A DNA stretch of 33,508 nucleotides from Ignavibacteriae bacterium HGW-Ignavibacteriae-3. GTDB lineage: Bacteria > Bacteroidota > Ignavibacteria > Ignavibacteriales > Melioribacteraceae. The notes under the pieces were generated by a model that was not told where the DNA came from, searched no databases, and saw only the letters and a program-made list of their open reading frames with translations. The stretch spans positions 1-33,508 of the forward strand of contig PGYS01000020.1 of the NCBI GenBank assembly GCA_002839795.1, read 5' to 3'. Of this stretch, positions 9,151 through 29,380 are shown in pieces. The first letter of the stretch is position 1. Every line of letters begins with the position of its first letter. The position numbers were made by a program, and so were the translations under genes.

Positions 9151-9513
9151 ATGGTTTCAAAAACAAAGAGTTTTCAAGAACTAATTGTATGGCAAAAAGC
9201 TCATCAATTTGTTCTGAGTGTTTATAGGATTACAAAATTCTTTCCAAAGGAAGAATTATTCGGATTAACATCTCAGTTCCGGAGGGCAGCTGTTTCTATT
9301 GCTGCCAACATTGCAGAAGGATTTCGAAAAAATGGGAAGTTGGATAAGCTGAGATTTTATAATATTGCTCAAGGATCAGTGGAAGAATGTAGATATTATC
9401 TTCTTTTAACAAGGGACTTGGATTATGCAGATACATCGAATTTGGTTTTATTGCTCGAAGAGGTTAGCAAAATCCTAAATTCTTATATGGCAAAAATTAG
9501 AACATCTAAATGA
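9151..9513 (+). CDS. Four-helix bundle protein (S23/IVS-encoded protein family)
   Basis: A 120-residue protein that starts SFQELIVWQKAHQFV and carries the hallmark FGLTSQFRRAAVSIAANIAEGF, then a third helix with QGSVEECRYYL and a fourth ending in a basic tail. This is the family (TIGR02436-like) first seen as ORFs in 23S rRNA intervening sequences; its biochemical function is unknown. It has no plausible role in pyrimidine breakdown, yet sits between the beta-ureidopropionase and aminotransferase genes inside inverted repeats. Its ribosome-binding site is weak. The gene is intact, at normal family length. Confidence 0.9.
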   Translation: MVSKTKSFQELIVWQKAHQFVLSVYRITKFFPKEELFGLTSQFRRAAVSIAANIAEGFRKNGKLDKLRFYNIAQGSVEECRYYLLLTRDLDYADTSNLVLLLEEVSKILNSYMAKIRTSK

Positions 9514-9535
9514 ATTATTCTGTTTTAGTGAAACA

Positions 9536-9570
9536 TAATTCTGGATTCTTATTCCTTAATTCTGAATTCT
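9536..9570. repeat. Right inverted-repeat arm with a tandem half copy
   Basis: The arm 9548-9570 (CTTATTCCTTAATTCTGAAT, then TCT) pairs with 9108-9130. A 14-base unit occurs twice, 21 bases apart: TAATTCTGGATTCT at 9536-9549 and TAATTCTGAATTCT at 9557-9570, with one mismatch. So the right end is a short tandem duplication of the arm's outer part. It lies upstream of the aminotransferase ribosome-binding site. Confidence 0.6.
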
Positions 9571-9595
9571 ATTTTTAAAATAAAGAGGTGAACAA

Positions 9596-10930: not shown

Positions 10931-10962
10931 TCGATTTTTCTTTTAAAGAAAGGATCTCTTCC

Positions 10963-12327: not shown

Positions 12328-12330
12328 TCG

Positions 12331-13650: not shown

Positions 13651-13722
13651 TAAATTTAAAATAAATAATTTTCGAATCTGATAAATATTTATGGAATGAA
13701 CTTTAAATAACTTATTAACTAA

Positions 13723-14313
13723 ATGGCCTCTAAAAAAATATCGAATGCGCAATTAATTTTGTACAAAAGAATCGAAGAGCTGATATTTTCTCTGAGGGGA
13801 GAAAAAGCAATCTTAGATAGCGATCTTGCATCGATATACGGAGTTAGCACAGCCCGTCTAAATCAGCAAGTGAAAAGGAACATAGAAAGATTCCCAATCG
13901 ATTTTGCATTTCGACTTACAAGAGCAGAGTTCAATAGTTTGATATTGCAAAATGCAACATCAAATCCGTCAAGAGGCGGAAGAAGAAAATTACCCATGGC
14001 ATTCACAGAGCATGGTGCAATAATGGCAGCAAATGTTTTAAACAGTCATAAGGCTGTACAAATGAGTGTTCTTGTCGTTCGAGCTTTTGTCCAACTCCGT
14101 CGAAATATAACAGTTCATGGCGAACTGGCGAAAAGGATAGATGAACTTGAACAAAAAGTCATTAATCACGATAGTGATATTCAGACTATTTTAGAGGCAA
14201 TTAGACAGCTTATGCAGCCGAAAGAAAGACAAAAGAAACATTATGGATTTACTATCGAAGAACCAATCTTGAAATATGTAGCAAAAAAAGAAAAAAGTTA
14301 TAAATCAAAATGA
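13723..14313 (+). CDS. ORF6N domain-containing DNA-binding protein
   Basis: A 196-residue protein. Residues about 15-105 form an ORF6N domain (RIEELIFSLRGEKAILDSDLASIYGV, FRLTRAEFNSL, FTEHGAIMAANVL), a fold shared with phage KilA-N/Bro-type regulators. Residues about 125-165 are a predicted coiled coil (ELEQKVINHDSDIQTILEAIRQL), then a basic tail. It sits between preA and dihydropyrimidinase on the same strand; its TGA (14311-14313) overlaps the GAGG that serves dihydropyrimidinase. No Shine-Dalgarno is visible before its ATG. The 72 bases upstream hold nothing recognisable. Such genes are common accessory or phage-derived genes in Bacteroidota. It could have been co-opted as operon regulator, but nothing in the sequence shows that. 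Confidence 0.9.
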   Translation: MASKKISNAQLILYKRIEELIFSLRGEKAILDSDLASIYGVSTARLNQQVKRNIERFPIDFAFRLTRAEFNSLILQNATSNPSRGGRRKLPMAFTEHGAIMAANVLNSHKAVQMSVLVVRAFVQLRRNITVHGELAKRIDELEQKVINHDSDIQTILEAIRQLMQPKERQKKHYGFTIEEPILKYVAKKEKSYKSK

Positions 14314-14321
14314 GGTTTGAA

Positions 14322-15710
14322 ATGTCCACCCTAATTAAAAACGGCCGCATCATTACCGCAGAGCAGGATTATACTGCCGATATATTTATAGAGAAAGATA
14401 AAATAACCACAATTGGTTTATCTCTTAATATTACCGCTGATAAAATTATTGACGCAAAAGGGAAATATGTTATTCCCGGCGGCATAGATGTACATACTCA
14501 TTTGGATATGCCCTTCGGAGGAACTACCTCAAGTGATAATTTTGAAACAGGAACTAGGGCAGCGGCATTCGGCGGTACAACATCATTAATTGATTTCGCT
14601 ATTCAGCCGAAAGGAAAAAGCATGCGCGAAGGTTTGGATATCTGGCGCAAGAAAGCGGAAGGAAAGGCCACCATCGATTACGGATTCCATATGATCATTA
14701 CGGATTTGCCGGATGAAAGAATTCCTGAGATGGATGATATGGTTGCCGAAGGTGTTACAAGTTTTAAACTGTTTCTTGCCTATCCAAATGTTTTAATGGT
14801 CGACGATGCTACAATATTCAAAGCATTGAAGCAAACTTCCAACAACGGCGGATTGGTTTGCATGCATGCCGAAAACGGAATGGTGATTGATCATATTGTG
14901 AAAGAAACTGTCGCTAATGGCAATCTCACTCCGCTATATCATGCCTTGAGCCGTCCGGCGGCGGCAGAAGCCGAATCTACTAATCGCGCTATTGCTCTGG
15001 CGGAAATGGCGGGAACACCAATCTATATTGTTCATCTTACATGCAACGACGCACTGTTAAAAGTGAGTGAAGCAAGATATAAAGGTCAACCGGTTTATGC
15101 CGAGACCTGTACACAGTATTTATATCTGTCCATCGATGATATTTCAAAACCGGATTTTGAAGGAGCGAAATATGTCTTTTCTCCTCCGGTAAGAGAAAAA
15201 TGGAATCAGGAAAAATTGTGGGGCGGATTGCAAAAGAATGAACTCCAGGTTGTTTCTACAGATCACTGTCCTTTCAATTTTGTCGGCCAAAAAGATTTGG
15301 GGAAAAATGATTTTACTAAAATTCCAAACGGCGGACCGGGCATCGAGAATCGTATGCAGATGATATATGACGGTGGAGTGAATGAGAAAAGAATTTCACT
15401 TAACAGATGGGTAGAAATAACTTCTACAAATCCGGCAAAAATATTTGGCATGTATCCGCGCAAAGGATCAATTGCACCAGGTTCGGATGCGGATATTGTA
15501 ATCTGGGATCCTCAAAAAGATTATTTGATCTCAGCAAAAACTCATCACATGAATGTTGATTATTCGATGTTCGAAGGAAGAAAGGTCAGAGGAATTGCGG
15601 AGACTGTTATTTCCAGAGGAGAAGTTATTGTCGAGAATGATAATTTCTTTGGTAAAGCCGGAAGAGGAAATTTTGTAAAGAGAGATACTTACGGTGCTGC
15701 CTGGAAGTAA
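14322..15710 (+). CDS. Dihydropyrimidinase (D-hydantoinase family)
   Basis: 462 residues from ATG at 14322, chosen because GAGG lies six bases upstream; an in-frame ATG at 14310 would overlap the previous stop. It is a cyclic amidohydrolase with a binuclear zinc site: HTH at 58-60, Lys149 in TSFKLF as the likely carboxylated ligand, His182 in MHAENG, a His in IVHLTC, and the Asp of STDHCPF. It opens dihydrouracil or dihydrothymine to N-carbamoyl-beta-amino acids, the substrates of the beta-ureidopropionase encoded upstream. The length matches the family. Hydantoinase side activity is common in this family. Confidence 0.92.
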   Translation: MSTLIKNGRIITAEQDYTADIFIEKDKITTIGLSLNITADKIIDAKGKYVIPGGIDVHTHLDMPFGGTTSSDNFETGTRAAAFGGTTSLIDFAIQPKGKSMREGLDIWRKKAEGKATIDYGFHMIITDLPDERIPEMDDMVAEGVTSFKLFLAYPNVLMVDDATIFKALKQTSNNGGLVCMHAENGMVIDHIVKETVANGNLTPLYHALSRPAAAEAESTNRAIALAEMAGTPIYIVHLTCNDALLKVSEARYKGQPVYAETCTQYLYLSIDDISKPDFEGAKYVFSPPVREKWNQEKLWGGLQKNELQVVSTDHCPFNFVGQKDLGKNDFTKIPNGGPGIENRMQMIYDGGVNEKRISLNRWVEITSTNPAKIFGMYPRKGSIAPGSDADIVIWDPQKDYLISAKTHHMNVDYSMFEGRKVRGIAETVISRGEVIVENDNFFGKAGRGNFVKRDTYGAAWK

Positions 15711-15749
15711 ATGTTTTTATAATTCAGGAAGTATTAATTCATTTCTTAT

Positions 15750-15771
15750 AATCGATCTTATATGATCGGTT
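15750..15771. promoter_or_regulatory. Inverted repeat upstream of the NCS1 permease
   Basis: AATCGATC (15750-15757) and GATCGGTT (15764-15771), separated by TTATAT, form an 8-bp stem with one G-T pair. No T-run follows, so it is not an intrinsic terminator. It lies in the 112-base gap between dihydropyrimidinase and the permease and may be an operator or an mRNA processing hairpin that separates permease expression from the enzymes. Confidence 0.35.
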
Positions 15772-15822
15772 CTTGCAATTCCATATCTAGTGAAAATTAT
15801 ATTTACCATTTAAAGGAGTGTT

Positions 15823-17241
15823 ATGACCAGCATCTCTAAAAATGAACTTGTTGAGACCGATCTCTCGGGATTTCATGATACAACACTTTTCAATGACGAT
15901 CTCGCACCGACAAAAATAAATGAACGTACCTGGGGAACTTACAATATAGCATCGCTTTGGATTGGCATGAGTGTATGTATAACCACATACATGCTTGCAA
16001 GCGGTTTAATAGTGGGCGGTATGAACTGGTGGCAGGCACTAATGACTATTGCACTGGGTAATGTTATTGTTCTTATTCCAATGATTCTAAATGCTCATGC
16101 CGGAACAAAATACGGAATTCCGTTTCCAATTTTGGCGAGGGCAGCATTTGGAACTTTGGGTTCAAATATCCCTGCACTTTTAAGGGCTGTAGTTGCCTGC
16201 GGATGGTTCGGTATTCAAACATGGATCGGCGGACAGGCATTTAATTCTCTCGTGATAATTCTTCTTCCCCAGTGGGCGCTTTTTGATTTGGGGCCGGCAA
16301 TAGGATTTATGATTTTTTGGTCGATGAACGTGTATTTCATTATTAACGGAATGAATTCAATCAAGTGGCTCGAAGCGCTTGGAGCCCCCTTTCTGCTTTT
16401 AGCCGGAATTGCTCTTCTTATTTGGGCTTATATTGAAGGCGGCGGCTTTGGACCTATATTAAGTCAGCCGAGCAAGTTCCAGACTGCCGGAGAATTCTGG
16501 AGATTTTTTATCCCCTCATTAACAGGGATGGTTGGTTACTGGGCAACACTTTCACTAAACATACCCGATTTTTCGCGCTTCGCTAAAAGTCAGAAAGCGC
16601 AGATGTTAGGGCAGGCAATCGGTCTGCCGCCTACAATGGTTTTATTTTCTTTCATTGGTGTCGCCGTCACTTCCGCCACCGTAATAATTTTCGGTGAGGC
16701 TATATGGGACCCTGTAGTTCTTCTTACAAAATTTCACAATCCTGTAATAGTGGTAATCTCTCTGGCGGCGTTGATGATTGCCACACTCACTACTAATATT
16801 GCTGCGAATGTGGTTTCGCCTGCCAATGATTTTGCCAATCTATATCCAAAAAAAATAACTTTTGTTAGGGGCGGTATGATGACCGCGGTTCTTGGGATAA
16901 TGATAATGCCCTGGAAATTATTGTCTGATTACAGCGCTTATATTTTTGGCTGGCTGATTGGATATTCCGGATTTCTGGGCCCCATCGCCGGTATACTTAT
17001 ATGCGATTATTTCTTAGTGAATAAGAAAGAACTGATTGTTGCGGACCTTTATAAGAGAAACGGAGTTTATGAATTTACAAAAGGTTTTAATCTGAAAGCC
17101 GTTTACGCTTTAGCTGCAGGTGTTTTTGTGGCACTGATTGGTCTGTTAATTCCATCATTGAGATTTTTATATGACTATGCCTGGTTTGTCGGATTTGCCG
17201 TTTCGTTCATTGTTTACCTTCTAATGATGAAGAAAAAATAG
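15823..17241 (+). CDS. NCS1 family nucleobase:cation symporter
   Basis: A 472-residue integral membrane protein with about 12 hydrophobic segments. The N-terminus contains NERTWGTYNIASLWIGMSV, the standard opening of NCS1 carriers (Mhp1, CodB, PucI, allantoin permeases). GWFGIQTWIGGQAFN follows around residue 128 and SLNIPDFSRFAKSQ near 245. It should import uracil, thymine or a hydantoin/allantoin-like base with Na+ or H+. AAAGGAG lies five bases before the ATG. As the last plus-strand gene of the pyrimidine block, its cargo is most likely the pathway substrate; exact specificity is inference. Confidence 0.87.
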   Translation: MTSISKNELVETDLSGFHDTTLFNDDLAPTKINERTWGTYNIASLWIGMSVCITTYMLASGLIVGGMNWWQALMTIALGNVIVLIPMILNAHAGTKYGIPFPILARAAFGTLGSNIPALLRAVVACGWFGIQTWIGGQAFNSLVIILLPQWALFDLGPAIGFMIFWSMNVYFIINGMNSIKWLEALGAPFLLLAGIALLIWAYIEGGGFGPILSQPSKFQTAGEFWRFFIPSLTGMVGYWATLSLNIPDFSRFAKSQKAQMLGQAIGLPPTMVLFSFIGVAVTSATVIIFGEAIWDPVVLLTKFHNPVIVVISLAALMIATLTTNIAANVVSPANDFANLYPKKITFVRGGMMTAVLGIMIMPWKLLSDYSAYIFGWLIGYSGFLGPIAGILICDYFLVNKKELIVADLYKRNGVYEFTKGFNLKAVYALAAGVFVALIGLLIPSLRFLYDYAWFVGFAVSFIVYLLMMKKK

Positions 17242-17376: not shown

Positions 17377-18408
17377 TTGAAAAAAGTAGTGACATTCGGC
17401 GAAATAATGCTTCGTCTATCAACACCCGGATTTACAAGATTTGTGCAAACACAAAATTATGATGCCACATATGGGGGAGGAGAGGCAAATGTAGCGGTAT
17501 CTCTTTCAAACTATGGTTTGGACTCCTACTTTGTTACAAAACTTCCCCAACATGAAATAGGGCAGGCGGCTATAAATCACCTGCGTAGATTTGGAGTAAA
17601 GGATAATTATATTGTAAGGGGCGGTGAAAGAGTAGGGATTTATTTTCTGGAAACGGGCGCCAGTCAAAGAGCATCTAAAGTTATTTATGATAGGGCCAAC
17701 TCCGCGGTCACTCAGATTAAAAAGGATGAAATCGATTGGAAGAAAGTTTTTGAAAAAACCGACTGGTTTCACTGGACCGGGATAACGCCGGCACTTGGCA
17801 AAGATGCGCAGGAATCTCTCATTGCCGCATGCGAGGCAGCAAAACAGGCCGGGGTTACAATCAGCTGTGATCTGAATTTCAGAGCCAAGATGTGGACGCA
17901 ACAGGAAGCCCGGTCTGTTATGAAACCACTGATGAAATATGTTGATGTCTGTATTGCTAATGAGGAGGATGCGGAAAAGAGTCTTGGACTTACAGCGGAA
18001 CATACGAGTATAGAAACCGGCGTTTTGAATGAGTCCGGATACTTTAATGTTGCCCTCAAACTGAAAGAAATATACAAATTCAAATCTGTGGCAATAACTT
18101 TAAGAGAAAGTTTCTCGGCTTCAAGGAATGGATGGAGTGCGCTTCTTCTTGATGAGAAGGATTGTAAACAACCTTACAGGTCGTCAAGATATGAAATGGA
18201 AATCGTTGACCGCGTAGGCGGGGGTGATTCGTTCGCGAGCGGATTAATATTTGGACTGCTGACAAAGAGTAATACTAAAGATGCGCTTGAATTTGCCTTG
18301 GCGGCGTCATGCTTAAAACATTCTATTCCCGGCGATTTTAATCTGGTTTCTGCAGATGAAGTTGAAAAACTAATCAAGAGCGGGGGATCGGGAAGAGTAG
18401 AAAGATAA
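17377..18408 (+). CDS. kdgK: 2-keto-3-deoxygluconate kinase (PfkB family)
   Basis: 343 residues, starting at TTG (17377) after GGAGA with seven bases spacing. PfkB signatures: GGGEANVA from 33 and the catalytic DRVGGGDSFASG with Asp284. IYDRAN in the substrate region and the hexuronate context point to KDG rather than fructose or ribose. It phosphorylates 2-keto-3-deoxy-D-gluconate to KDPG, which the KDPG aldolase encoded at 24823 splits. The 135-base upstream gap contains AAACGATTGTTT, a partial match to a motif seen before other uronate genes. It is transcribed towards uxaE and ends at a terminator. Confidence 0.85.
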   Translation: MKKVVTFGEIMLRLSTPGFTRFVQTQNYDATYGGGEANVAVSLSNYGLDSYFVTKLPQHEIGQAAINHLRRFGVKDNYIVRGGERVGIYFLETGASQRASKVIYDRANSAVTQIKKDEIDWKKVFEKTDWFHWTGITPALGKDAQESLIAACEAAKQAGVTISCDLNFRAKMWTQQEARSVMKPLMKYVDVCIANEEDAEKSLGLTAEHTSIETGVLNESGYFNVALKLKEIYKFKSVAITLRESFSASRNGWSALLLDEKDCKQPYRSSRYEMEIVDRVGGGDSFASGLIFGLLTKSNTKDALEFALAASCLKHSIPGDFNLVSADEVEKLIKSGGSGRVER

Positions 18409-18491: not shown

Positions 18492-19742
18492 CTATAAGAA
18501 TATAGGCTTTATGTGTCTTTCAAATAGGTTATTAGTCACGCATTTACTTATTGAGCCCCGGGCTTTTTCCATTGCGTCATAATAAAGCGGCCCCTTTTCT
18601 GCCGCTACTCTGAATGAAATATGCAGAAGCTGACGCAAATTTACATCCATCGATTTACCAAGCGGTTCATGTCTTAACGCTGAACCAAATTTTTCCATAC
18701 TCCACTCATTTACGACTTCCGGAGAGGGCAGTTTATCCTTCTCAATTTCAACGGAATGTAAATATGGCTGCAGCAATTCATCATATCTGCTAAAACCCTC
18801 AGTGTAAATATCTTTGACGAATGCCAGGCCTTTATCACCCGATTCAATTAAACCTATGAGCTCTTCAAGCCAGGTTGTTCCGGCTGTCTTAACATGTATT
18901 CCTGTGTTATACTTTTTAATAATTCTGTTAATGATAGGGTAGATCGAAAATTTATCGCTGCCTGAATGCACGCTTAATTTCAAATTCTCCGGAAGATCGA
19001 ATATTTTTTTACTCTGCTCGATTATTAGAATTATCTCTTCGAATTCTCGTTCGAATGTGGTAAGATCTCCAATGTAGTCTATACCTTTAAGAAACTTTCC
19101 CGCGAATTTGGGAGCAATGGTTTGGATAGGAATTTTCTCCTGGGCCACAGCCGCGAGAATAAAAAAGATATCGATCGGAGACTGTGCTTCATCAACCTCA
19201 TCGAAAGAAACTTCCACTACAAAATTATTATCCGGTTTCTTCGACAAAATATGTCTGTAAATTTTTCCTGCCTCTTTAATTGCAGCAAGATATTTTTCGG
19301 CTATTCTTAATAAAAGTGAATCATCAACAGGAAATGGTTTTATAATTCCGGGAATTATTACTTCTCCTTTAAATGAAGATATATTTTTTATAAAAGCAGC
19401 GCTCTCTTCATCGGTTGCTCTTTTGTTTATAAATTCTCCCACATCAAGAGTAAAGAAATTCGAATATTCCAGAAAGTGATCTACCGATTTTAGATTTATG
19501 TGGTCAGCGTCTATATAAAAGGATCTATCCCATTTAAATTCATTAACTGCAGATTGAACTATATTTTGTGTGTTGGAGGGACTGCTTCCAATGATTGAAT
19601 GCTCTCTGAATGACTTGTTCCAAACCGGCACAAGTTCAACGCCGATTCTTTGGGCCAGCCTTACTGCTTCCAGCTGAGGCATACATTCTTTCCCGAATCG
19701 ATCGCCAATTCCCAACGAATATTTTTCTAATTTCATTTTCAT
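18492..19742 (-). CDS. uxaE: Tagaturonate/fructuronate epimerase
   Basis: A 416-residue protein of the UxaE family, first characterised in Thermotoga maritima, opening with KYSLGIGDRFGKECMPQL and containing YIDADHINLKSV near residue 77, SVHSGSDKFSIYPI and GIHVKTAGTTW. It interconverts D-tagaturonate and D-fructuronate, so galacturonate can enter the glucuronate branch without UxaA/UxaB. It is the only minus-strand gene of the uronate locus, divergent from uxuB across a 275-base gap that could carry shared control sites. Met3 is an alternative start. Recognition is by overall sequence character; residue-level catalysis is not certain to me. Confidence 0.85.
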   Translation of the reverse strand: MKMKLEKYSLGIGDRFGKECMPQLEAVRLAQRIGVELVPVWNKSFREHSIIGSSPSNTQNIVQSAVNEFKWDRSFYIDADHINLKSVDHFLEYSNFFTLDVGEFINKRATDEESAAFIKNISSFKGEVIIPGIIKPFPVDDSLLLRIAEKYLAAIKEAGKIYRHILSKKPDNNFVVEVSFDEVDEAQSPIDIFFILAAVAQEKIPIQTIAPKFAGKFLKGIDYIGDLTTFEREFEEIILIIEQSKKIFDLPENLKLSVHSGSDKFSIYPIINRIIKKYNTGIHVKTAGTTWLEELIGLIESGDKGLAFVKDIYTEGFSRYDELLQPYLHSVEIEKDKLPSPEVVNEWSMEKFGSALRHEPLGKSMDVNLRQLLHISFRVAAEKGPLYYDAMEKARGSISKCVTNNLFERHIKPIFL

Positions 19743-20017: not shown

Positions 20018-20869
20018 ATGGAAGCAAATTCATTTGCAGATTTGAAGGATAAAGTTTGTGCCATAACCGGGGGTGCAGGCGTTATAGGTCTCTCGTTATC
20101 AAAAGCTCTGGCTTCTGCCGGAGTTAAAATGGCTGTCCTGGATCTTAATAAGGAATCAGCAGATAAGGCTGCACAAGAAATTAAATCAGCTTTTGGTATT
20201 CCGGCAATCGGAGTTGAGGCCAATGTGCTGGATAAAAGTTCACTCGAAAAAGCCAAATCAGTTGTTAATGCCGAACTCGGAAAAATTGATATTCTTATCA
20301 ATTGTGCCGGCGGTAATTCTCCTAAAGCCACAACTTCTTATGAATTCATAACGAAAGATAATGTCTCTGAAATAGAAAAAACTTTTTACGGACTTGATAT
20401 AGAAGGATTCAGAGAGGTATTCGATTTGAATTTTTTGGGCACGGTACTTCCCACGATGGTTCTTACTACTGACATGATAGAATCCGGGAAGGGGTCGGTA
20501 ATAAATATATCATCAATGAATGCCTTTAGACCCCTGACAAAAATTCCGGCGTACTCAGCCGCAAAGGCCTCTATTAACAATTTGACGGAATGGCTCGCGG
20601 TACATCTTGCAAAAATGAATATAAGAGTGAACGCCATCGCACCGGGATTTTTCCTTACCAATCAAAACAGATTTTTATTGACTGATGAGAAAACCGGTGA
20701 GCTGACACCCCGCGGAAATAAAATTATTGCCGGAACACCGATGGGAAAATTCGGTGAGCCGGAAGATCTTAACGGCGCCCTATTATATCTTGTAAGCGAT
20801 ATGTCAAGTTTCGTTACCGGAATTGTGATCCCGGTGGATGGCGGTTTCAATGCATATTCGGGTGTGTAG
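20018..20869 (+). CDS. uxuB: SDR-type D-mannonate oxidoreductase (fructuronate reductase)
   Basis: 283 residues from ATG at 20018, seven bases after GGGAGA; a TTG directly before it is in frame but too close to the Shine-Dalgarno. It is a short-chain dehydrogenase with GGAGVIG (18-24), NCAGGNSP and YSAAK (Tyr179, Lys183). The C-terminal half (INISSMNAFRPLTKIPAYSAA, GFFLTNQNRFLL, VDGGFNAYSGV) is characteristic of Bacillus-type UxuB, which differs from the long-chain E. coli enzyme. It reduces D-fructuronate to D-mannonate with NAD(P)H. It is the first gene of a plus-strand run that continues past the window edge with gaps of 18-69 bases. Confidence 0.86.
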   Translation: MEANSFADLKDKVCAITGGAGVIGLSLSKALASAGVKMAVLDLNKESADKAAQEIKSAFGIPAIGVEANVLDKSSLEKAKSVVNAELGKIDILINCAGGNSPKATTSYEFITKDNVSEIEKTFYGLDIEGFREVFDLNFLGTVLPTMVLTTDMIESGKGSVINISSMNAFRPLTKIPAYSAAKASINNLTEWLAVHLAKMNIRVNAIAPGFFLTNQNRFLLTDEKTGELTPRGNKIIAGTPMGKFGEPEDLNGALLYLVSDMSSFVTGIVIPVDGGFNAYSGV

Positions 20870-20916
20870 CAAAATATTTTAACTCAAATAAACTGATAAC
20901 ATTAAGGTAATTTTCA

Positions 20917-21999
20917 ATGGACAATGGTCTAAATATTAAGTCAAATTGTGCCCTGGATTTTGTCTCCCTGGGGGCGATGGTTCATCGTCTGGATCCGGGT
21001 ATAATACCGTTCAGAAAAGCAACTGAATGTAAAATTCACGTGAGCGGCGGGGAATATAATGTTGCCGCAAATCTGGCAGACTGTTTCCGTATGAACTGTG
21101 CTGTTGTTTCAGCAATTGTGAATTATCCTATTGGTGACCTTATTGCTGAGCGCGTAAAAGCCATGGGAGTTAAGGCGTACTTCAAAACTTTCACTCACAA
21201 TGGCGTGAACGGACCTAATATGGCAACAGTCTATAGTGATCGGGGATTAGGATTGCGTGCACCCGTTGTATTCTATAATAGAGCCAATGAAGCAGCCGCA
21301 CTGCTTAAACCGTGTGATATAAATTGGAAAGAGATATTCACTAATGGAGTGAAATGGTTTCACAGCGGCGGGATCTTCGCATCACTATCGGAAACTACGG
21401 GCGAGCTTATTATAGAAGCTATGAAAGCTGCAAAGAATGCCGGTGCAGTTACAAGTTTTGATCTTAACTTCAGAGCAAAATTATGGAGCATCTGGGGCGG
21501 AGAGCAGAAAGCCGCCGAAGTGATTGACCGTATTGTCCGGCATGTGGATGTGCTGGTCGGAAATGAAGAAGATCTCCAGAAAGGGTTGGGAATTCCGGGA
21601 CCTGAAGTCGCGGCAAAATCAAAACTCGATCCCAGCACATTTTTTGGTATGATTGATAAAGTTGTCGGTAAATATCCGAACGTAAAAATTGTTGCAACGA
21701 CTCTTCGCGAAGTTCAATCCACAAACCGTCACAGCTGGAGCGCTGTCGCATGGATAAATGGGAAAGCTTATTCGGCCCCGACATGCCAACTCGATGTTTT
21801 TGACAGAGTCGGAGGCGGTGATGGATTTGCCTCAGGATTTATTTACGGATTGCTTTCAGATGAATCACCGGAATATTCAGTGAAACTCGGATGGGCGCAT
21901 GGAGCATTACTTACAACTTTTCCCGGCGATACAACTATGGCAACTTTGGAAGATGTTCGCTCATTTGCAGAAGGCGGATCTGCAAGAATTCAAAGGTAA
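20917..21999 (+). CDS. Second PfkB-family acid-sugar kinase (KdgK-like)
   Basis: A 360-residue ribokinase-family protein. GGEYNVAANLADCF is near residue 44 and DRVGGGDGFASGF holds catalytic Asp302. FYNRAN mirrors YDRAN of the kdgK product, and SFDLNFRAKLWS is shared in both, so the two are paralogues that probably use related acid sugars. The stretch before it differs (GLGLRAP here, GASQRAS in KdgK), hinting at another specificity. It sits between uxuB and the LarA-like gene and not beside the aldolase, which suits a gluconate or mannonate kinase as well as a second KDG kinase. Annotation programs will call it KdgK; the true substrate is open. Confidence 0.78.
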   Translation: MDNGLNIKSNCALDFVSLGAMVHRLDPGIIPFRKATECKIHVSGGEYNVAANLADCFRMNCAVVSAIVNYPIGDLIAERVKAMGVKAYFKTFTHNGVNGPNMATVYSDRGLGLRAPVVFYNRANEAAALLKPCDINWKEIFTNGVKWFHSGGIFASLSETTGELIIEAMKAAKNAGAVTSFDLNFRAKLWSIWGGEQKAAEVIDRIVRHVDVLVGNEEDLQKGLGIPGPEVAAKSKLDPSTFFGMIDKVVGKYPNVKIVATTLREVQSTNRHSWSAVAWINGKAYSAPTCQLDVFDRVGGGDGFASGFIYGLLSDESPEYSVKLGWAHGALLTTFPGDTTMATLEDVRSFAEGGSARIQR

Positions 22000-22038
22000 T
22001 TTATTCTAAACTAATAATTTCTTGATCGGATTTATAGA

Positions 22039-23313
22039 ATGGTATACTATAGTAAGGGAAGTGAAGAGGAAATACTGAGCGGGGAAATTCTTCGTGAGGC
22101 TGTCTATTCAACCCTGGCAAAATTAGGAATGAAAAAAAAAGTTCTTGCAATCCCTCCGGATTTCACCAGATACCATTCTCAGGCTGGAATATTAACTGCT
22201 TATATCTATCAATATTATAAAGAATCGTTGACAGATATTCTCCCAGCTCTTGGCACTCACACAGCAATGTCCGATGGACAATTAAATAAAATGTTTAAAG
22301 GCATTCCCCATAATTTATTCAGAGTCCACGACTGGAAAAATGATCTCGCTACTCTTGGTGAAGTACCATCCGAATTCATTAATAAAGTATCCGAAGGAAA
22401 ACTTGATTACAGCTGGCCCGCTCAGGTAAATAAATTGCTGGTTGAAGGCAACCACGATTTGATTCTTTCAATCGGTCAGGTAGTGCCTCATGAAGTAGTA
22501 GGCATGGCCAACTATAATAAAAATATCTTTGTAGGAACCGGCGGCAGGGAAGGCATTAACAAGAGCCATTTCCTTGGCGCCGTTTACGGAATGGAAAGGA
22601 TGATGGGACGCGCCGATACTCCCGTAAGAAAAGTACTGAACTACGCCTCGGATAATTTCGCCAATCACCTTCCGATTATTTATGTGCTGACGGTTGTTGC
22701 GAAAGATGCCTCCGGAAATCTTGTTGTGCGCGGCCTCTTCATCGGAGATGATCACGAAACATTTGAACTTGCGGCGGCTCTCTCTCTGAAGGTGAATTTT
22801 GAACTTTTGGATAAGCCGTTAAATAAAGTTGTTGTCTATCTCGATCCGTCGGAATTCAAAAGTACATGGCTTGGCAATAAAAGTGTGTACCGTACAAGAA
22901 TGGCTATCGCCGACGGAGGAGAGCTGATAGTTCTGGCTCCCGGTCTAAAAGAATTCGGCGAGGATAAAACAATAGACGGATTGATACGCAAATATGGATA
23001 TGTTACAACTCCGGAAGTTTTAAAATTTGTTGAAGAAAATGATGATCTTAAAAACAATTTAAGTGCCGCAGCTCACCTCATTCACGGTTCTTCCGAAGGG
23101 CGATTCAAAATTACTTACTGTCCCGGCTATCTTAGCCGTGAGGAGATTAATAGCGTCAATTTCAGCTACGCCGATCTTAATGAAATGACTGCGAAATATA
23201 ATCCCGATCTGCTGAAAGATGGAATTAATATTATGCCGGACGGCGAAGAGATATTTTTTATCTCAAATCCCGCGCTGGGATTGTGGGCCTTTAAAGAAAA
23301 ATTTAATAATTGA
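22039..23313 (+). CDS. LarA-superfamily nickel-pincer racemase/epimerase homologue (candidate mannonate/gluconate 2-epimerase)
   Basis: A 424-residue DUF2088/LarA-type protein. PPDFTRYHS (39-47) corresponds to the DxTR loop, GTHTAMSD (72-79) holds the catalytic His74, and VVPHEVVGMANYNK holds His151 and Lys161 ten residues apart, the same spacing as His174 and Lys184 (the covalent cofactor site) of Lactobacillus LarA. The C-terminal domain is also LarA-like. LarA family enzymes invert the C2 centre of 2-hydroxy acids with a nickel pincer nucleotide; a D-gluconate 2-epimerase branch (GntE) has been described. Between uxuB and gnd it would turn mannonate into gluconate. No larB, larC or larE cofactor genes are in the window, so they must be elsewhere. 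Confidence 0.8.
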   Translation: MVYYSKGSEEEILSGEILREAVYSTLAKLGMKKKVLAIPPDFTRYHSQAGILTAYIYQYYKESLTDILPALGTHTAMSDGQLNKMFKGIPHNLFRVHDWKNDLATLGEVPSEFINKVSEGKLDYSWPAQVNKLLVEGNHDLILSIGQVVPHEVVGMANYNKNIFVGTGGREGINKSHFLGAVYGMERMMGRADTPVRKVLNYASDNFANHLPIIYVLTVVAKDASGNLVVRGLFIGDDHETFELAAALSLKVNFELLDKPLNKVVVYLDPSEFKSTWLGNKSVYRTRMAIADGGELIVLAPGLKEFGEDKTIDGLIRKYGYVTTPEVLKFVEENDDLKNNLSAAAHLIHGSSEGRFKITYCPGYLSREEINSVNFSYADLNEMTAKYNPDLLKDGINIMPDGEEIFFISNPALGLWAFKEKFNN

Positions 23314-23334
23314 AGAATATAGGAGTGTCGAATA

Positions 23335-24804
23335 ATGAGTAAAGCGGGCATGTCTGCAGTGGCAGATATTGGATTAGTCGGTCTCGCGGTTATGGGCGAG
23401 AATCTTGTTCTTAATATGGAAAGTCACGGATTCACAGTAGCTGTTTATAATAGAACAGTTGAAAAAGTGAATGCATTTATTGAAGGACGCGGCAAAGGGA
23501 AAAAAATTATTGGTGCAGCTTCGATTGAGGATTTGGTTTCAAGTTTAAGTTCCCCAAGAAAAATTATGCTTATGGTAAAAGCCGGTAAGCCGGTTGATGA
23601 TTTTATCGAATTATTGATTCCTCATCTTGACAAAGGCGATATAATAATTGATGGAGGTAATTCCCATTTTCCTGATTCAATCAGGAGAACAAAATATCTG
23701 GAAGAGAAAGGATTTTTATTCATAGGCACTGGGGTCTCCGGCGGTGAAGAGGGCGCGTTGAAAGGTCCTTCAATTATGCCGGGCGGATCGAATGCAGCAT
23801 GGCCTTTCGTGAAACCGATTTTTCAATCGATTGCCGCAAAGGTCGAGGATGGCTCACCCTGCTGCGATTGGGTCGGCGAAAACGGCGCCGGTCATTTTGT
23901 AAAAATGGTTCACAATGGTATTGAATACGGCGATATGCAGCTGATTTGCGAAGCGTATCAAATTATGAAGGATCTTCTCGGTATGAATTACGACGAGATG
24001 CATCAGGTATTCAAAGAATGGAACGAAGGCGAACTTGACAGTTATCTGATTGAAATTACCCGCGATATTCTTGCTTATAAAGATGAAGATGGAAGTCCGT
24101 TGGTAGAAAAAATTCTTGATACCGCCGGTCAGAAGGGGACAGGCAAATGGACCGTGCTCGCATCGCTGGATCATGGCGCCCCTCTTACTTTGATTGGTGA
24201 GGCTGTTTACGGAAGAACTTTATCCGCGCAAAAAGATGAGAGAGTTGAAGCTTCAAAAATATTAACCGGACCAAAACCAAAATTTACCGGCGACAAAAAA
24301 CAGTTTGTTAATGATTTGATGAAGGCACTGTACGCTTCAAAACTTGTTTCCTATGCTCAGGGTTATGTGCTGATGAAATTCGCCGCTCAGGAGTACGGAT
24401 GGAAATTGAATAATGGAGGCATTGCTCTGATGTGGCGCGGAGGATGCATTATACGTTCTGTGTTTCTTGGAAAAATAAAAGACGCGTTCGATAAAAATCC
24501 GGATCTTAACAATTTGCTCCTCGATCCTTTCTTCAAAAGTAAAATTGAAGAGTCGCAAGATGCATGGAGAAGAGTTATCTCAGAATCTGTACTGAACGGA
24601 ATCTGGATTCCGGCTCTTTCAACAGCGTTAAATTATTTCGATGGTTTTAGAAACGGCAGATTGCCGGCAAATTTATTACAGGCTCAGCGCGATTATTTCG
24701 GAGCTCATACTTATGAAAGAACCGATAAACCTCGCGGAGAATTTTTCCATACAAACTGGACAGGAAGAGGCGGAACTACGGCTTCGTCCACTTACTCAGT
24801 TTAG
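23335..24804 (+). CDS. gnd: 6-phosphogluconate dehydrogenase, decarboxylating
   Basis: 489 residues, matching the long (about 470-490) Gnd class. GLAVMGEN (16-23) binds NADP, GVSGGEEGALKGPSIMPGG is the substrate loop, and KMVHNG holds Lys190 and Asn194 of the active site. The C-terminus has the usual YFGAHTYERTD and FFHTNWTGRGG. It oxidises 6-phosphogluconate to ribulose 5-phosphate, CO2 and NADPH. Its position within a uronate operon, 21 bases after the LarA-like gene, is unusual for a housekeeping pentose-phosphate enzyme and points to 6-phosphogluconate being made from mannonate or gluconate here. AGGAG precedes the ATG. Confidence 0.95.
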   Translation: MSKAGMSAVADIGLVGLAVMGENLVLNMESHGFTVAVYNRTVEKVNAFIEGRGKGKKIIGAASIEDLVSSLSSPRKIMLMVKAGKPVDDFIELLIPHLDKGDIIIDGGNSHFPDSIRRTKYLEEKGFLFIGTGVSGGEEGALKGPSIMPGGSNAAWPFVKPIFQSIAAKVEDGSPCCDWVGENGAGHFVKMVHNGIEYGDMQLICEAYQIMKDLLGMNYDEMHQVFKEWNEGELDSYLIEITRDILAYKDEDGSPLVEKILDTAGQKGTGKWTVLASLDHGAPLTLIGEAVYGRTLSAQKDERVEASKILTGPKPKFTGDKKQFVNDLMKALYASKLVSYAQGYVLMKFAAQEYGWKLNNGGIALMWRGGCIIRSVFLGKIKDAFDKNPDLNNLLLDPFFKSKIEESQDAWRRVISESVLNGIWIPALSTALNYFDGFRNGRLPANLLQAQRDYFGAHTYERTDKPRGEFFHTNWTGRGGTTASSTYSV

Positions 24805-24822: not shown

Positions 24823-25464
24823 ATGAATAGAATATTAGAACAAATTGGATCATACGGAATCGTTCCCGTAATCGTTATTGAAGATACGGATAATGCTGTG
24901 CCCCTTTCACAATCCCTGATTGAGGGGGGACTGCCCGTTGCTGAGGTGACATTTCGAACCGGTGCGGCAAGGAAATCAATTGAACGAATTGCCAAAACAT
25001 TTCCGGATATGTTAATTGGCGCTGGAACTGTCCTCTCCATCGATCAGGTTAAGAGCGCTGTGGATTCCGGTGCGAAATATATTATTTCACCCGGATTGAA
25101 TCCGAAGGTCGTTGAGTATTGTGTATCAGAAAATATTCCGGTAACTCCCGGGATTGCTACTCCATCCGATATCGAAAGAGCTCTTGAATTTAATCTGGAG
25201 GTTGTAAAATATTTTCCGGCAGAAGCTCTCGGCGGATTGAACTATCTGAAAGCAATTTCTGCTCCGTATGGAAATCTGAAATTCATTCCTACCGGCGGTA
25301 TTGATGAAAAGAATCTTCTGAGTTATTTACAATTTTCAAAAGTGCTTGCCTGCGGTGGCAGCTGGATGGTGAAAAGCGATCTGATCTCAAACAAAAAATT
25401 TAATGAGATTAAACAACTTTCTGAAAATGCCTTAAGCATTGTCAGATCAAGAAATAATTTGTAA
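24823..25464 (+). CDS. eda: 2-keto-3-deoxy-6-phosphogluconate aldolase
   Basis: A 213-residue class I aldolase. Glu41 and Arg45 are in GGLPVAEVTFRT, GAGTVLS is at 66-72, the Schiff-base Lys129 is in VVKYFPAEALGG, and PTGGI (156-160) closes the phosphate site. It splits KDPG into pyruvate and glyceraldehyde 3-phosphate, the end point of the galacturonate, glucuronate and pectin branches encoded around it. It starts 18 bases after gnd with no evident Shine-Dalgarno, which suggests translational coupling. Confidence 0.94.
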   Translation: MNRILEQIGSYGIVPVIVIEDTDNAVPLSQSLIEGGLPVAEVTFRTGAARKSIERIAKTFPDMLIGAGTVLSIDQVKSAVDSGAKYIISPGLNPKVVEYCVSENIPVTPGIATPSDIERALEFNLEVVKYFPAEALGGLNYLKAISAPYGNLKFIPTGGIDEKNLLSYLQFSKVLACGGSWMVKSDLISNKKFNEIKQLSENALSIVRSRNNL

Positions 25465-25531: not shown

Positions 25532-26815
25532 ATGAGTGAAGGTATTGGAAAACAAGAGGGGAATGAAAAAGTCGGCCGTTACAGGTGGTCAATTGTTGCT
25601 CTTATATTTTTTGCTACTACTATTAACTACATTGACCGGCAGGTACTTGGCATATTGGCACCGGTACTTCAAAAAGAAATTGGTTGGGATGAAATTGATT
25701 ATGGTTATATAGTCACCGCATTCTCTGCAGCTTATGCAATAGGATTGGTAGTTGTAGGAAGATTGATTGACAGATTTGGGACTAAACTTGGCTATGCTTT
25801 TGCAATTACAGCATGGAGTATAGCCGCTATGGGACATGCGGCTGTCAGCAGTGTCATAGGATTTGCTTCGGCAAGATTCGCATTAGGGTTGAGTGAAGCC
25901 GGAAATTTTCCCGCGGCAATTAAAACAGTTGCGGAATGGTTCCCTAAAAAAGAACGCGCCTTCGCAACCGGAATATTTAACTCCGGGTCAAACGTCGGGG
26001 CTATCATTGCTCCGTTAGTTGTGCCCTGGATTACTATTACTTACGGATGGCAGGAAGCTTTTATTGCAACCGGAGCTTTAGGATTTATCTGGTTATTTTT
26101 CTGGTGGCGGTTGTATGACAAACCGGAAGTACATAAGAAATTATCCAAATCGGAATTAGCATATATTCTTTCTGATCCTGCCGAAACCAGCGTTAAAATT
26201 CCCTGGCTGCAATTAATAAAGTACAAGCAGACTTGGGCTTTCGCGATAGCAAAATTTTTAACCGATCCCATCTGGTGGTTTTACCTGTACTGGATTCCAA
26301 AATTTATGGATAAGAACTACGGAATTACTCTTGATAAGATTGGAATTCCACTGATTATAATTTACCTGATGGCGGACGTCGGCAGCATCGGCGGCGGATG
26401 GCTCTCTTCGTTTTTCATTAAAAGAGGTTACTCGGTGAATAAAGGAAGAAAGGCCGCGATGCTTATAATGGCTATTTGTGTTGTTCCCATCGTTTTTGCA
26501 TCCCAGGCGTCCGAGTTATGGATGGCTGTAGCGTTATTAAGTCTTGCCACTGCTGCTCATCAAGGTTGGTCGGCAAATCTTTTTACAACCGTCTCCGACT
26601 TATTCCCTAAAAAGGCAGTTGCCTCTGTTGTCGGTTTTGGCGGAATGGCCGGAGCAATTGGGGGCATGATGATTGCCACCTTTGCCGGATTTATTTTGCA
26701 AATTACGGGCAGTTATGTCTGGTTGTTCATTATTTCCGGTTCAGCTTATTTGATCGCGTTTTTTATTTTTAATTTGCTTGCTCCTAAATTGGAACCGATT
26801 GAAGAAATTGTATAA
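25532..26815 (+). CDS. MFS hexuronate transporter (ExuT-like, ACS family)
   Basis: A 427-residue permease of 12 hydrophobic segments. TTINYIDRQVLGILAPVLQ near residue 30, FALGLSEAGNFPAAIKTVAEWFP near 118 and FNSGSNVGAIIAPL near 150 are signatures of the anion:cation symporter subfamily containing E. coli ExuT (galacturonate/glucuronate). It would import hexuronates by proton symport across the inner membrane. AAGGA precedes the ATG. It is placed between eda and uxaC, the first enzyme acting on its presumed substrate. A sugar-acid specificity other than hexuronate cannot be excluded. Confidence 0.85.
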   Translation: MSEGIGKQEGNEKVGRYRWSIVALIFFATTINYIDRQVLGILAPVLQKEIGWDEIDYGYIVTAFSAAYAIGLVVVGRLIDRFGTKLGYAFAITAWSIAAMGHAAVSSVIGFASARFALGLSEAGNFPAAIKTVAEWFPKKERAFATGIFNSGSNVGAIIAPLVVPWITITYGWQEAFIATGALGFIWLFFWWRLYDKPEVHKKLSKSELAYILSDPAETSVKIPWLQLIKYKQTWAFAIAKFLTDPIWWFYLYWIPKFMDKNYGITLDKIGIPLIIIYLMADVGSIGGGWLSSFFIKRGYSVNKGRKAAMLIMAICVVPIVFASQASELWMAVALLSLATAAHQGWSANLFTTVSDLFPKKAVASVVGFGGMAGAIGGMMIATFAGFILQITGSYVWLFIISGSAYLIAFFIFNLLAPKLEPIEEIV

Positions 26816-26869
26816 AAGCAATTTTTGTAAACTGTATAATTATTTATTGATAAATTCTTGGAATTATTA

Positions 26870-28291
26870 ATGAAAGATATTTTCATCAGCAGGAATTTTC
26901 TTCTGTTAAATAAGACGGCAGAAAAACTTTATTTTGATTATGCTGAGCAACAGCCGGTCATCGATTATCACTGCCACTTGTCCGTTAAGGAAATTGCCGA
27001 GAATAGGGTATTCGAAAACATAACTCAGGCTTGGATCGTTGGAGATCATTATAAGTGGCGGGCAATGAGGGCTAACGGTATTGATGAAAGTTTTATAACC
27101 GGCAGCTCGAGCGATAAAGAGAAATTTTTTAAATGGGCCGAAACTGTTCCATACACTTTAAGGAATCCTTTATATCACTGGACTCACATGGAGTTGAAAA
27201 AACCGTTCGGGATCTCAGACAAATTACTCAACGCTGATACTGCTGATGAAATCTGGAATGTAACCAACAAATTGCTTCAAAATGAAAATTATTCTTCGCA
27301 GGGTCTAATAAAGCAATTTAATGTGGAAGTAGTATGTACAACTGATGATCCAGTTGATTCGCTTGAGTATCATCAGCAGATAAAGAAAAATTCATTCGGA
27401 GTTAAAGTCATTCCTGCATTCCGTCCTGATAATGCTATGGCTGCAGAAAATATTAACCAATTTCATCTGTGGCTTGAAAAACTGGAAAAGAGTTCGGACA
27501 TTACAATAACAAACTTCGATTCTTTCTTGGATGCGTTAAAAAAACGGCATGATTTTTTTCATTCCAGCGGCTGCCGTTTATCAGATCACGGATTGGAAAC
27601 CGCATATGCCGAAGATTATACCGGTAAGGAAATCAACTCAATCTTTTCTAAAATATTAGCCCGGAAAGAATTGAGCGCTCTTGATATTCTGAAATTTAAA
27701 TCGGCTATGATGCTTGAGTTTGGACTGATGGATCATGAAAAAGGTTGGGTACAGCAACTGCATCTGGGTGCGCTGCGGAATAATAACTCAAGAAAATTCA
27801 GAGAACTGGGTGCGGATTCGGGAGTTGATTCTATAGGGGATTTTGAGATTGCAAAACCGCTGGCAAAATATCTGAACCGTTTGGATGATCTTAACAAGTT
27901 GACAAAAACGATAATATATAATCTTAACCCCGCGGATAATGAATTGATTGCTACTATGATCGGAAATTTTCAGGATGGTACGGTTGTGGGTAAACTGCAG
28001 TACGGAAGTGCATGGTGGTTTCAGGATCAGAAAAACGGAATGGAACGGCAAATTGAAACACTATCAAATATGGGATTGCTCAGCCGCTTTGTAGGGATGC
28101 TTACAGACTCGAGAAGCTTTTTGTCCTATCCGCGCCATGAATATTTCAGGAGACTTCTCTGTAATCTTCTCGGGGATGAAATGGAAAAAGGATTAATCCC
28201 GAATGATCTTGTTCTGGTCGGTAAAATGGTATCGGATATATGTTACAACAACGCAAGGAATTATTTTTCTTTCTGGGATGATAACGTCTGA
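26870..28291 (+). CDS. uxaC: Glucuronate/galacturonate isomerase
   Basis: 473 residues from ATG at 26870, where MKDIFISRNFLLLN aligns with the usual UxaC opening; an in-frame TTG at 26858 is less likely. It belongs to the amidohydrolase-like TIM barrels, with metal ligands His34 and His36 in DYHCHLS. Family features further on: LQLHLGALRNNN-type loop (WVQQLHLGALRNNN), GWWFQDQ-like WWFQDQKNGMERQ and FVGMLTDSRSFLSYPRHEYFRR. It converts D-glucuronate to D-fructuronate and D-galacturonate to D-tagaturonate. The latter then needs UxaE (18492-19742), which is present. Confidence 0.95.
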   Translation: MKDIFISRNFLLLNKTAEKLYFDYAEQQPVIDYHCHLSVKEIAENRVFENITQAWIVGDHYKWRAMRANGIDESFITGSSSDKEKFFKWAETVPYTLRNPLYHWTHMELKKPFGISDKLLNADTADEIWNVTNKLLQNENYSSQGLIKQFNVEVVCTTDDPVDSLEYHQQIKKNSFGVKVIPAFRPDNAMAAENINQFHLWLEKLEKSSDITITNFDSFLDALKKRHDFFHSSGCRLSDHGLETAYAEDYTGKEINSIFSKILARKELSALDILKFKSAMMLEFGLMDHEKGWVQQLHLGALRNNNSRKFRELGADSGVDSIGDFEIAKPLAKYLNRLDDLNKLTKTIIYNLNPADNELIATMIGNFQDGTVVGKLQYGSAWWFQDQKNGMERQIETLSNMGLLSRFVGMLTDSRSFLSYPRHEYFRRLLCNLLGDEMEKGLIPNDLVLVGKMVSDICYNNARNYFSFWDDNV

Positions 28292-28351: not shown

Positions 28352-29380
28352 ATGAAAACGAAACAGATTACTCTTAACGATATTGCTCAACGCCTGAATG
28401 TTTCATCGGTAACCGTCTCCAAAGCCCTTCGCGGTCATCCCGATATTTCAAAGGAAACTACAAAACTTGTTAAGGCGGTTGCTAATGAACTCGGATACTC
28501 TCCTAATTTTATGGCAAGAAATCTTTCTGCAAGAAAATCGAATACGATTGGGGTGGTGGTCCCTAAAATCGCCCATCATTTTTTCAGTTCAATTATAGAA
28601 CATATCTATGACTACGCATTTGAAAATAATTACGAAATTATTCTTACAGTCTCACAGGAAGACTCCGAGAGGGAAAAAAAACATATCCAGACTCTGCTCT
28701 CAATGAGAGTGGATGGAATAATCCTTTCAATTACTCAGGATACAAAGGATTTTGAAATATTTAAAACTGCAATGAATCGCGGTGTTCCTTTTGTTTTTAT
28801 GGATCGAATTCCGGAATTGAGAAACTGTAATACGGTTACCGTTGATGACAAGGGAGGGGCATATAAAATTATTGAGCATGCAATAAATCTCGGATATAAA
28901 AAAATTGCCCATTTTGCCGGCAATCAAAAAATTAACATCGGCAGGGAAAGAGCGCTTGGGTATAAGCTGGCGCTGATTGATAATGGAATCGAAGTTAATC
29001 CCGATTGGACGGTCGAGGGGGATTTTGGAGAAAGGAGCGGTTATGAATCTTTCATGAAATTATATCGGCAGAACAATCTCCCGGACCTGATCTTTGCCGT
29101 GACATACCCCGTTGCTCTCGGTGTCTATAATGCTGCGAGGGAAGTCGGTATAAGAATTCCGGACGGTATTGATCTTGTGTGCTTCGGCAATTCACAGGTT
29201 CAGAGTTTCCTGTCGCCTCCATTAAGTTGTGTGAATCAGCCGACAGACCAGCTTGCGGTAAAATCTATGGAACTTCTATTTGATAATATTGATAACAAGG
29301 AAGAATTTGAGCCCAAACAAATAATTCTGGATACAAATTTAATTTTACGCGGAACGTGTATCAAATATAATAGAATGTAA
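28352..29380 (+). CDS. LacI-family transcriptional regulator of the uronate/pectin locus
   Basis: 342 residues. The N-terminal helix-turn-helix (ITLNDIAQRLNVSSVTVSKALRGHP, residues 6-30) and hinge helix (PNFMARNLSARKSNTIGVVVP) are followed by a periplasmic-binding-like effector domain with MDRIPE, HFAGNQKINIGRERALGY and CVNQPTDQLAVKSMELL. It probably binds a uronate intermediate such as KDG and controls the surrounding genes. It sits inside the run it likely regulates, between uxaC and the DUF4861 gene. No Shine-Dalgarno is seen. Which intermediate it senses cannot be read from sequence. Confidence 0.93.
   Translation: MKTKQITLNDIAQRLNVSSVTVSKALRGHPDISKETTKLVKAVANELGYSPNFMARNLSARKSNTIGVVVPKIAHHFFSSIIEHIYDYAFENNYEIILTVSQEDSEREKKHIQTLLSMRVDGIILSITQDTKDFEIFKTAMNRGVPFVFMDRIPELRNCNTVTVDDKGGAYKIIEHAINLGYKKIAHFAGNQKINIGRERALGYKLALIDNGIEVNPDWTVEGDFGERSGYESFMKLYRQNNLPDLIFAVTYPVALGVYNAAREVGIRIPDGIDLVCFGNSQVQSFLSPPLSCVNQPTDQLAVKSMELLFDNIDNKEEFEPKQIILDTNLILRGTCIKYNRM

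Follow-up and report, generated by a model that had tools for sequence, protein, structure and literature searches.

A LarA group 18 homologue in a putative mannonate-to-6-phosphogluconate route of an Ignavibacteriales pectin locus, in a genome without matches to the known cofactor synthesis genes

How is mannonate used in a uronate operon that encodes the enzyme to make it, when no gene for mannonate dehydratase (UxuA), the normal next step, is found in the genome? The question is raised by contig PGYS01000020.1 of Ignavibacteriae bacterium HGW-Ignavibacteriae-3 (class Ignavibacteria, order Ignavibacteriales), all 33,508 nucleotides of which were analyzed and are here called the window. On its + strand uxuB, a second pfkB gene (pfkB2), a larA homologue and gnd are consecutive, with intergenic gaps of 47, 39 and 21 bases; this order, proposed in an earlier note on the DNA, was borne out by the open reading frames (ORFs) and by family profiles. 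The larA homologue is a member of NCBIfam NF052594 (NPN_18_hexonate, LarA group 18, "nickel-dependent putative hexonate epimerase"), and we refer to its product as LarA-18. We consider it somewhat probable that the operon has two arms, one in which LarA-18, PfkB2 and Gnd would process mannonate and one in which KduD, 2-keto-3-deoxygluconate (KDG) kinase and Eda would process lyase products, with LarA-18 dependent on the nickel-pincer nucleotide (NPN). The four central genes are as follows.

20018-20869, + strand: UxuB-like short-chain dehydrogenase/reductase, D-mannonate oxidoreductase (NF006132, 393.9 bits, cut-off 281); the mechanical ORF call begins at a TTG at 20015, three bases upstream of 20018
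20917-21999, + strand: PfkB2, proposed gluconate or mannonate 6-kinase (PF00294, 71.7 bits, cut-off 25.8; no NCBIfam model above its cut-off)
22039-23313, + strand: LarA group 18 homologue, proposed mannonate C2 epimerase (NF052594, 673.3 bits, cut-off 500)
23335-24804, + strand: Gnd, decarboxylating 6-phosphogluconate dehydrogenase (TIGR00873, 774.4 bits, cut-off 426.7; nearly full-length match to 5uq9, 738.4 bits)

In the proposed pathway, galacturonate would be converted to tagaturonate by UxaC, to fructuronate by UxaE and to mannonate by UxuB. UxuA not being found, LarA-18 would invert C2 of mannonate to yield gluconate, PfkB2 would phosphorylate gluconate at O6, and Gnd, presumably with NADP, would convert the 6-phosphogluconate to ribulose 5-phosphate, CO2 and NADPH. 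Lys161 of LarA-18 would tether NPN, and His177 and Arg44 would hold it; the cofactor would take the hydride from C2 and return it to the opposite face, while His74 and His151 served as acid and base.

The first line of evidence is gene linkage. A search with LarA-18 as query found 573 related stretches, and the best 80 of them were used; they lie in genomes labeled Ignavibacteriota, Bacteroidota, Calditrichota, Planctomycetota, Opitutales, Bryobacteraceae and others. A survey of 391 genomes of the class (at least 85% complete, drawn evenly from the larger group) turned up 72 more that carry LarA-18; loci from 70 of these were added, G231 and G281 being left out since their genes were cut by contig ends. 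The resulting 150 loci gave 149 LarA proteins (L133, with an internal stop, was omitted) and, after removal of identical cores, 130 unique ones, 128 of them with neighborhoods, which covered up to 8 kb on each side. Among the 92 loci with at least three ORFs on each side, Gnd was found within three genes on the same strand in 79, UxuB in 71 and a PfkB or PfkA-type kinase in 77, and all three lay within three genes in 56. Because the same neighbors recur in distant relatives, the four-gene order reflects more than chance, and the linkage supports a route from mannonate to 6-phosphogluconate.

The second line of evidence comes from the protein. By sequence, its only strong match among solved structures was 4NAR from T. 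maritima (133.9 bits; the next scored 14.3 bits), which we take to be the apoprotein structure of the D-gluconate epimerase GntE2. Such an apoprotein structure is mentioned in PMC7583248. An AlphaFold model of LarA-18, built with 49 sequences, had a mean predicted local distance difference test score (pLDDT) of 87.9 and a predicted template modeling score of 0.85, with residues 153-158 and 166-168 below 50 pLDDT. Its best fold match was again 4NAR, with a template modeling score of 0.81 and 24% identity in the structural alignment, and all 19 matches with E ≤0.001 were LarA-family chains. The key residues His74, His151 and Lys161 are present as the earlier note had stated; the two catalytic histidines (H74, H151) and the NPN-binding R44, K161 and H177 correspond in alignments to LarA H108, H174, R75, K184 and H200. 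Across 131 LarA-18 sequences D41, R44, H74, H151, E152, V153, K161, H177, K281, R285 and H346 are invariant, and A345 is kept in 130. The GntE signature, described as E, V, A and H at LarA positions 175, 176, 358 and 359 (PMC11770544), is found in the window protein as E152, V153, A345 and H346, the equivalence of the last two being taken from the alignment to 4NAR. Group 18 has itself been hypothesized, from its residues, to epimerize a hexonate (PMC7583248).

The kinase is consistent with this assignment. PfkB2 is 33% identical to PfkB1, the other PfkB kinase of the cluster, and its best solved relative is the KDG kinase 2afb (156.5 bits), presumably that of T. maritima, which PfkB1 matches over its full length with 420 bits. 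The PfkB2 alignments retain a tyrosine and two arginines of KDG kinase (within VFYNRA and DLNFRAKLW) that, we assume, bind the carboxylate there; because these are kept, PfkB2 likely phosphorylates a related sugar acid. In 10 of the 128 loci a PfkA-type (PRK14072-like) kinase lies within three genes of LarA-18, and none of the 10 has a PfkB within that distance, as if the one replaced the other (PfkA-type families were assigned from scanned examples). The PfkA-type, diphosphate PFK-like kinase, which mostly occurs together with a HAD protein (for example, L012:5724-7991 and L131:5138-7326), may be a sugar-acid kinase with a different fold. Also found near LarA-18 was a PdxB-like dehydrogenase (31 of the 128 loci, between LarA-18 and gnd in 17; for example, L115:6686-7909, - strand).

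The two steps might be taken in the reverse order, PfkB2 forming 6-phosphomannonate and LarA-18 acting as a 6-phosphomannonate 2-epimerase to give 6-phosphogluconate. Consistent with this, a PfkB-cluster ORF directly precedes LarA-18 in 69 of the 121 loci with an ORF at that position, and LarA-18 carries arginines at 285 and 355 (both invariant) and 287 (130 of 131 sequences), where 4NAR has Lys at 285 and Gln at 287. There is also a precedent in L. suebicus, in which mannonate is phosphorylated first and the phosphate then epimerized, by genes not identified; its extract phosphorylated mannonate and interconverted the phosphates and gave no conversion of mannonate to gluconate (PMC6978723). 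Reaction order is not given by gene order, however, and all four GntE signature residues are kept in LarA-18, while the GntE enzymes act on free mannonate. We therefore regard the kinase-first order as rather unlikely. The earlier note's route from mannonate through gluconate to 6-phosphogluconate is supported by the linkage, the GntE residues, the similarity to 4NAR and the lack of UxuA and Edd matches; it is not new, and its kinase might act before the epimerase.

Another hexonate or an aldarate could also be the substrate, the link to Gnd being incidental. For group 19, mannonate as substrate was doubted by the authors themselves, given its high KM and the uronate context, with glucarate/mannarate among the alternatives suggested (PMC7583248). 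Against a similar doubt here, the commonest neighbors of LarA-18 are UxuB, which makes mannonate, and Gnd, which uses 6-phosphogluconate, and we consider a different substrate very unlikely.

No UxuA was seen among the window ORFs scanned, as the earlier note had observed, and the result extends to the whole genome (96.15% complete, 243 contigs), which gave no PF03786 match at E 0.001; no search aimed at ManD-type dehydratases was made. Edd was likewise absent from the matches. The sole ILVD_EDD protein was ruled out as Edd, since it is IlvD (TIGR00110, 817.3 bits, cut-off 618.15; edd model TIGR01196, 301.6 bits, cut-off 708.25). Compared with the canonical UxuB-UxuA-KdgK-Eda route, then, the window has homologues of UxaC, UxaE, UxuB, KdgK and Eda, and the search of the genome for UxuA was negative. 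The remaining genes of the cluster are as follows.

17377-18408, + strand: PfkB1, probable KDG kinase (KdgK) (PF00294, 119 bits; no NCBIfam model above its cut-off)
18492-19742, - strand: UxaE-like tagaturonate epimerase, to fructuronate (PF16257, 184.9 bits, cut-off 27.1)
24823-25464, + strand: Eda, 2-keto-3-deoxy-6-phosphogluconate (KDPG)/2-keto-4-hydroxyglutarate (KHG) aldolase, directly after gnd (PF01081, 222.9 bits; TIGR01182, 250.8 bits, cut-off 156.05)
25532-26815, + strand: major facilitator superfamily transporter, probable uronate importer, the substrate suggested by position (PF07690, 207.4 bits)
26858-28291, + strand: UxaC uronate isomerase (NF002794, 629.7 bits, cut-off 387)
28352-29380, + strand: LacI-family regulator (PF00356, 49.7 bits; PF13377, 90.5 bits)
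30779-32308, + strand: Pel9A-like right-handed beta-helix protein with a secretion tail, possible pectate lyase (PF22842, 88.9 bits; PF18962, 43 bits)
32377-33132, + strand: KduD 2-dehydro-3-deoxy-D-gluconate 5-dehydrogenase (TIGR01832, 379.9 bits, cut-off 338.85)

A DUF4861 gene is also found downstream with the Pel9A-like and kduD genes, and no KduI was detected among the window ORFs scanned. We interpret the cluster as a locus for the catabolism of pectin and galacturonate. The earlier note had passed over Eda and the KDG kinase. Because Eda and a close homologue of the T. maritima KDG kinase are encoded in the same cluster, a KDPG arm is also present. The earlier note had uronate carbon passing to pentose phosphates and NADPH in place of KDPG; here "in place of" is too strong. 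The proposed pathway is thus probably right in outline and not exclusive of KDPG, whose arm probably serves unsaturated pectin products: these would be converted to KDG through KduD and then processed by KDG kinase and Eda. The presence of Eda and KDG kinase without UxuA is sensible if KDG arises from lyase products in this way. A promoter scan gave 22 sites, fewer than in shuffled sequence (mean 31.9), and was uninformative.

Several observations weigh against the mannonate-to-6-phosphogluconate reading. At least one of Gnd, UxuB and the kinase is missing nearby in 36 of the 92 loci, Gnd itself in 13, and in G184, of the same genus as the window, KduI stands at the place expected for Gnd, with no Gnd found in 15 kb of sequence (a KduI-family ORF occurs in 40 of the 128 related neighborhoods). 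UxuA was over its cut-off, sometimes weakly, in 26 of 50 LarA-18 genomes tested for LarC, LarE and UxuA, which were chosen beforehand from the 80 loci for long loci, isolates and phylum spread, and uxuA adjoins LarA-18 in 9 loci; LarA-18 is thus not a general substitute for UxuA. PfkB2, judged by its sequence, is a diverged KDG-kinase paralogue with gluconate or mannonate only a proposed substrate, and the available literature passages on LarA groups describe no assay of a group 18 enzyme. The cofactor genes also weigh against the reading. In the window genome LarC had no matches (TIGR00299, PF01969), LarB none at E 1e-10, and LarE none over its cut-off, the simplest reading of which is an enzyme without its cofactor; moreover, of the 318 class genomes that lack LarA-18, 79 have LarB, 78 LarC and 80 LarE, so these proteins have other uses.

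The best LarE match in the window genome (41.4 bits) was rejected because it sits in NAD+ synthase (648 bits to NF010588). In the T. maritima genome, used as a control, UxuA, LarC, LarE and LarB were all matched, whereas none was found in the window genome. The earlier note had held that a genome without lar cofactor genes would speak against its proposal, and such a genome is what we find; we take it as a puzzle of cofactor supply, and not as a refutation, because linkage and residues persist across many genomes of the same kind. In the class survey LarA-18 was found in 73 genomes, LarC in 108, LarE in 107 and LarB in 106 (over cut-off). Within Ignavibacteriales, 38 of the 40 LarA-18 genomes had none of LarB, LarC and LarE, while G242 and G432 had the full set; of the 33 elsewhere in the class, 25 had the full set, 5 had none and 3 had LarC only (Fisher 1.5e-10 for 2/40 versus 25/33, relatedness being ignored). 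Each of the 40 genomes gave one Lar_N match, LarA-18 alone, although the Lar_N profile is weak, having missed LarA-18 itself in 2 of the 73, so that further divergent LarAs are possible. Of the 50 named genomes tested from the 80 loci, 27 had both LarC and LarE, 2 had LarE only and 21 had neither a LarC match nor LarE over cut-off, among these 21 the isolate Perlabentimonas gracilis.

NPN genes might be present and have been missed, being too divergent for the profiles or lying in assembly gaps. That profiles can miss is clear from Lar_N, and 11 of the 27 LarC matches in the 50 named genomes were weak (71-92 bits; Marinilabiliaceae and kin), 5 of the 11 having a weak LarE match within ~2 kb (G008, G013, G015, G022 and G023). 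The one such cluster examined, in Alkaliflexus (L095:7700-10133), combines LarC at 78 and LarE at 145 bits, both below cut-off, with LarB at 183 bits, just over it. Even in the control Corynebacterium glutamicum, whose GntE1 was tested as an NPN enzyme, LarC and LarB were matched and LarE (TIGR00268) did not exceed its cut-off. Against this, three unrelated profiles concur in all 40 genomes of the order, two genomes of the same family (G242 and G432) match fully, 28 of the 38 negative genomes are at least 98% complete and three of them (G157, G192 and G222) are single contigs. Incomplete metagenome-assembled genomes as the only cause were thus rejected, and we judge missed genes an improbable explanation.

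We next labeled LarA-18 proteins by their genomes, as orphan or NPN-positive, named loci by LarC and LarE only and class loci as positive with at least two of LarB, LarC and LarE; 20 unique loci without a genome test and 5 partial ones were labeled unk or part in the tree. UxuA matches numbered 7 in 21 orphan versus 19 in 27 NPN-positive named genomes. The catalytic and NPN residues are invariant in the 55 orphan-labeled and the 51 NPN-positive sequences. In the tree the two labels interleave, with 20 label changes versus a shuffled mean of 42.3 (quick method, midpoint root), at least 9 of the 20 being forced by the starred branches, and genus g17 holds both an orphan (G315) and a positive (G432). 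A single separate orphan clade was thus rejected. As this is a tree of the enzyme only, it would not distinguish loss of the NPN genes from transfer of LarA-18 into lineages that lack them. The window larA gave dN/dS values of 0.046 and 0.051 against its near orphan relatives L106 and L007, with dS near saturation, and is under strong constraint.

These data also bear on whether the LarA-18 of Ignavibacteriales has dispensed with NPN, using another hydride acceptor or catalyzing a different reaction. Such an enzyme would account for the 38 of 40 genomes in which LarB, LarC and LarE were all unfound, yet all 55 orphan-labeled sequences keep Lys161 (the tether), His177 (the nickel ligand) and the remaining NPN residues without exception, and orphans and positives interleave even within a genus; we find an NPN-free LarA-18 unlikely to a similar degree as missed genes. 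In family f10, 9 of the 10 LarA-18 genomes have LarB, LarC and LarE (the tenth, G151, has a LarC fragment only), and LarA-18 is the single Lar_N match in all 10. Because the cofactor residues are invariant in orphans and f10 pairs LarB, LarC and LarE with LarA-18 as the only Lar_N protein, LarA-18 probably still uses NPN, obtained from outside or by another route. Apo-LarA proteins were activated by NPN made in vitro (PMC7583248), so loading without cellular synthesis enzymes is chemically possible.

Retention of an enzyme and its cofactor ligands in genomes that lack the genes for cofactor synthesis is what one expects of an auxotroph. In Ignavibacteriales LarB, LarC and LarE would apparently not be the source of NPN, which would be taken up or made by another route. 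Whether NPN is vitamin-like in this order and in scattered other bacteria, taken up from neighbors or made by a second pathway, we regard as evenly balanced. No transporter or alternative NPN synthase was identified in the loci (up to 8 kb on each side), and no orphan-enriched neighbor was accepted as an evident NPN supplier, the enriched clusters being transketolase, PfkA-type kinase, HAD, a long UxaE form, KduI and DUF4861. Transketolase lies within three genes in 9 of 45 orphan versus 0 of 38 NPN-positive full-flank loci, and directly after Gnd in 11 of the 128 loci (family assigned from one scanned member).

In the titles and abstract openings of the literature searched, with subscription journals mostly outside it, nothing on NPN auxotrophy was found, nor, with the same coverage, anything linking lactate racemase, nickel and Ignavibacteri. 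Genomes with larB, larC and larE and no larA are described in PMC11796402, the available parts of which do not discuss the reverse case; those of PMC12393405 and PMC9283937 do not mention genomes with larA and without larB, larC and larE. As far as these searches show, the absence of the known NPN pathway is the new part of the finding. The NF052594 hypothesis assumes NPN, whereas most of the carriers sampled in the window's order lack the genes to make it. Organisms with an NPN enzyme and without the known NPN pathway offer a direct way to test for cofactor sharing or a second route of synthesis.

The mannonate-to-6-phosphogluconate route, by contrast, is not new, having already been proposed for T. 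maritima, reportedly in Rodionova 2012. T. maritima GntE2 (LarAH20) is a LarA-family mannonate/gluconate 2-epimerase and, like LarA-18, is encoded near gnd and uxaE among genes for pectin and galacturonate use; the operon is gnd-uxaRED-gntEK (PMC3750489), so that the kinase gene there is gntK, whereas the window has a PfkB. After supply of in vitro NPN, T. maritima GntE2 and C. glutamicum GntE1 epimerized mannonate to gluconate, a reaction that probably admits mannonate to the pentose phosphate pathway (PMC7583248). The linkage reported here supports placing the group 18 LarA family in this link. The L. suebicus pathway likewise joins mannonate to 6-phosphogluconate and Gnd, with UxuA, KdgK and KdgA undetected in the proteome; it differs in that the kinase acts first, by genes not identified, and in continuing by phosphoketolase (PMC6978723). 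PfkB2 and LarA-18 are candidate genes for this type of conversion.

Two further groups of genes in the window lie outside the cluster. Positions 8233-17241 encode a CN_hydrolase, a class III aminotransferase, a flavin/FeS and dihydroorotate-dehydrogenase-like pair, an amidohydrolase and a cytosine/purine permease, a set that we take to resemble reductive pyrimidine catabolism; within it lie a 23S rRNA-IVP-like ORF (9151-9513) and an ORF6N-domain ORF (13723-14313). At 5061-6515 a xylose-isomerase-like TIM barrel is fused to a 3-keto-disaccharide hydrolase domain, adjoining a GFO/IDH/MocA dehydrogenase.

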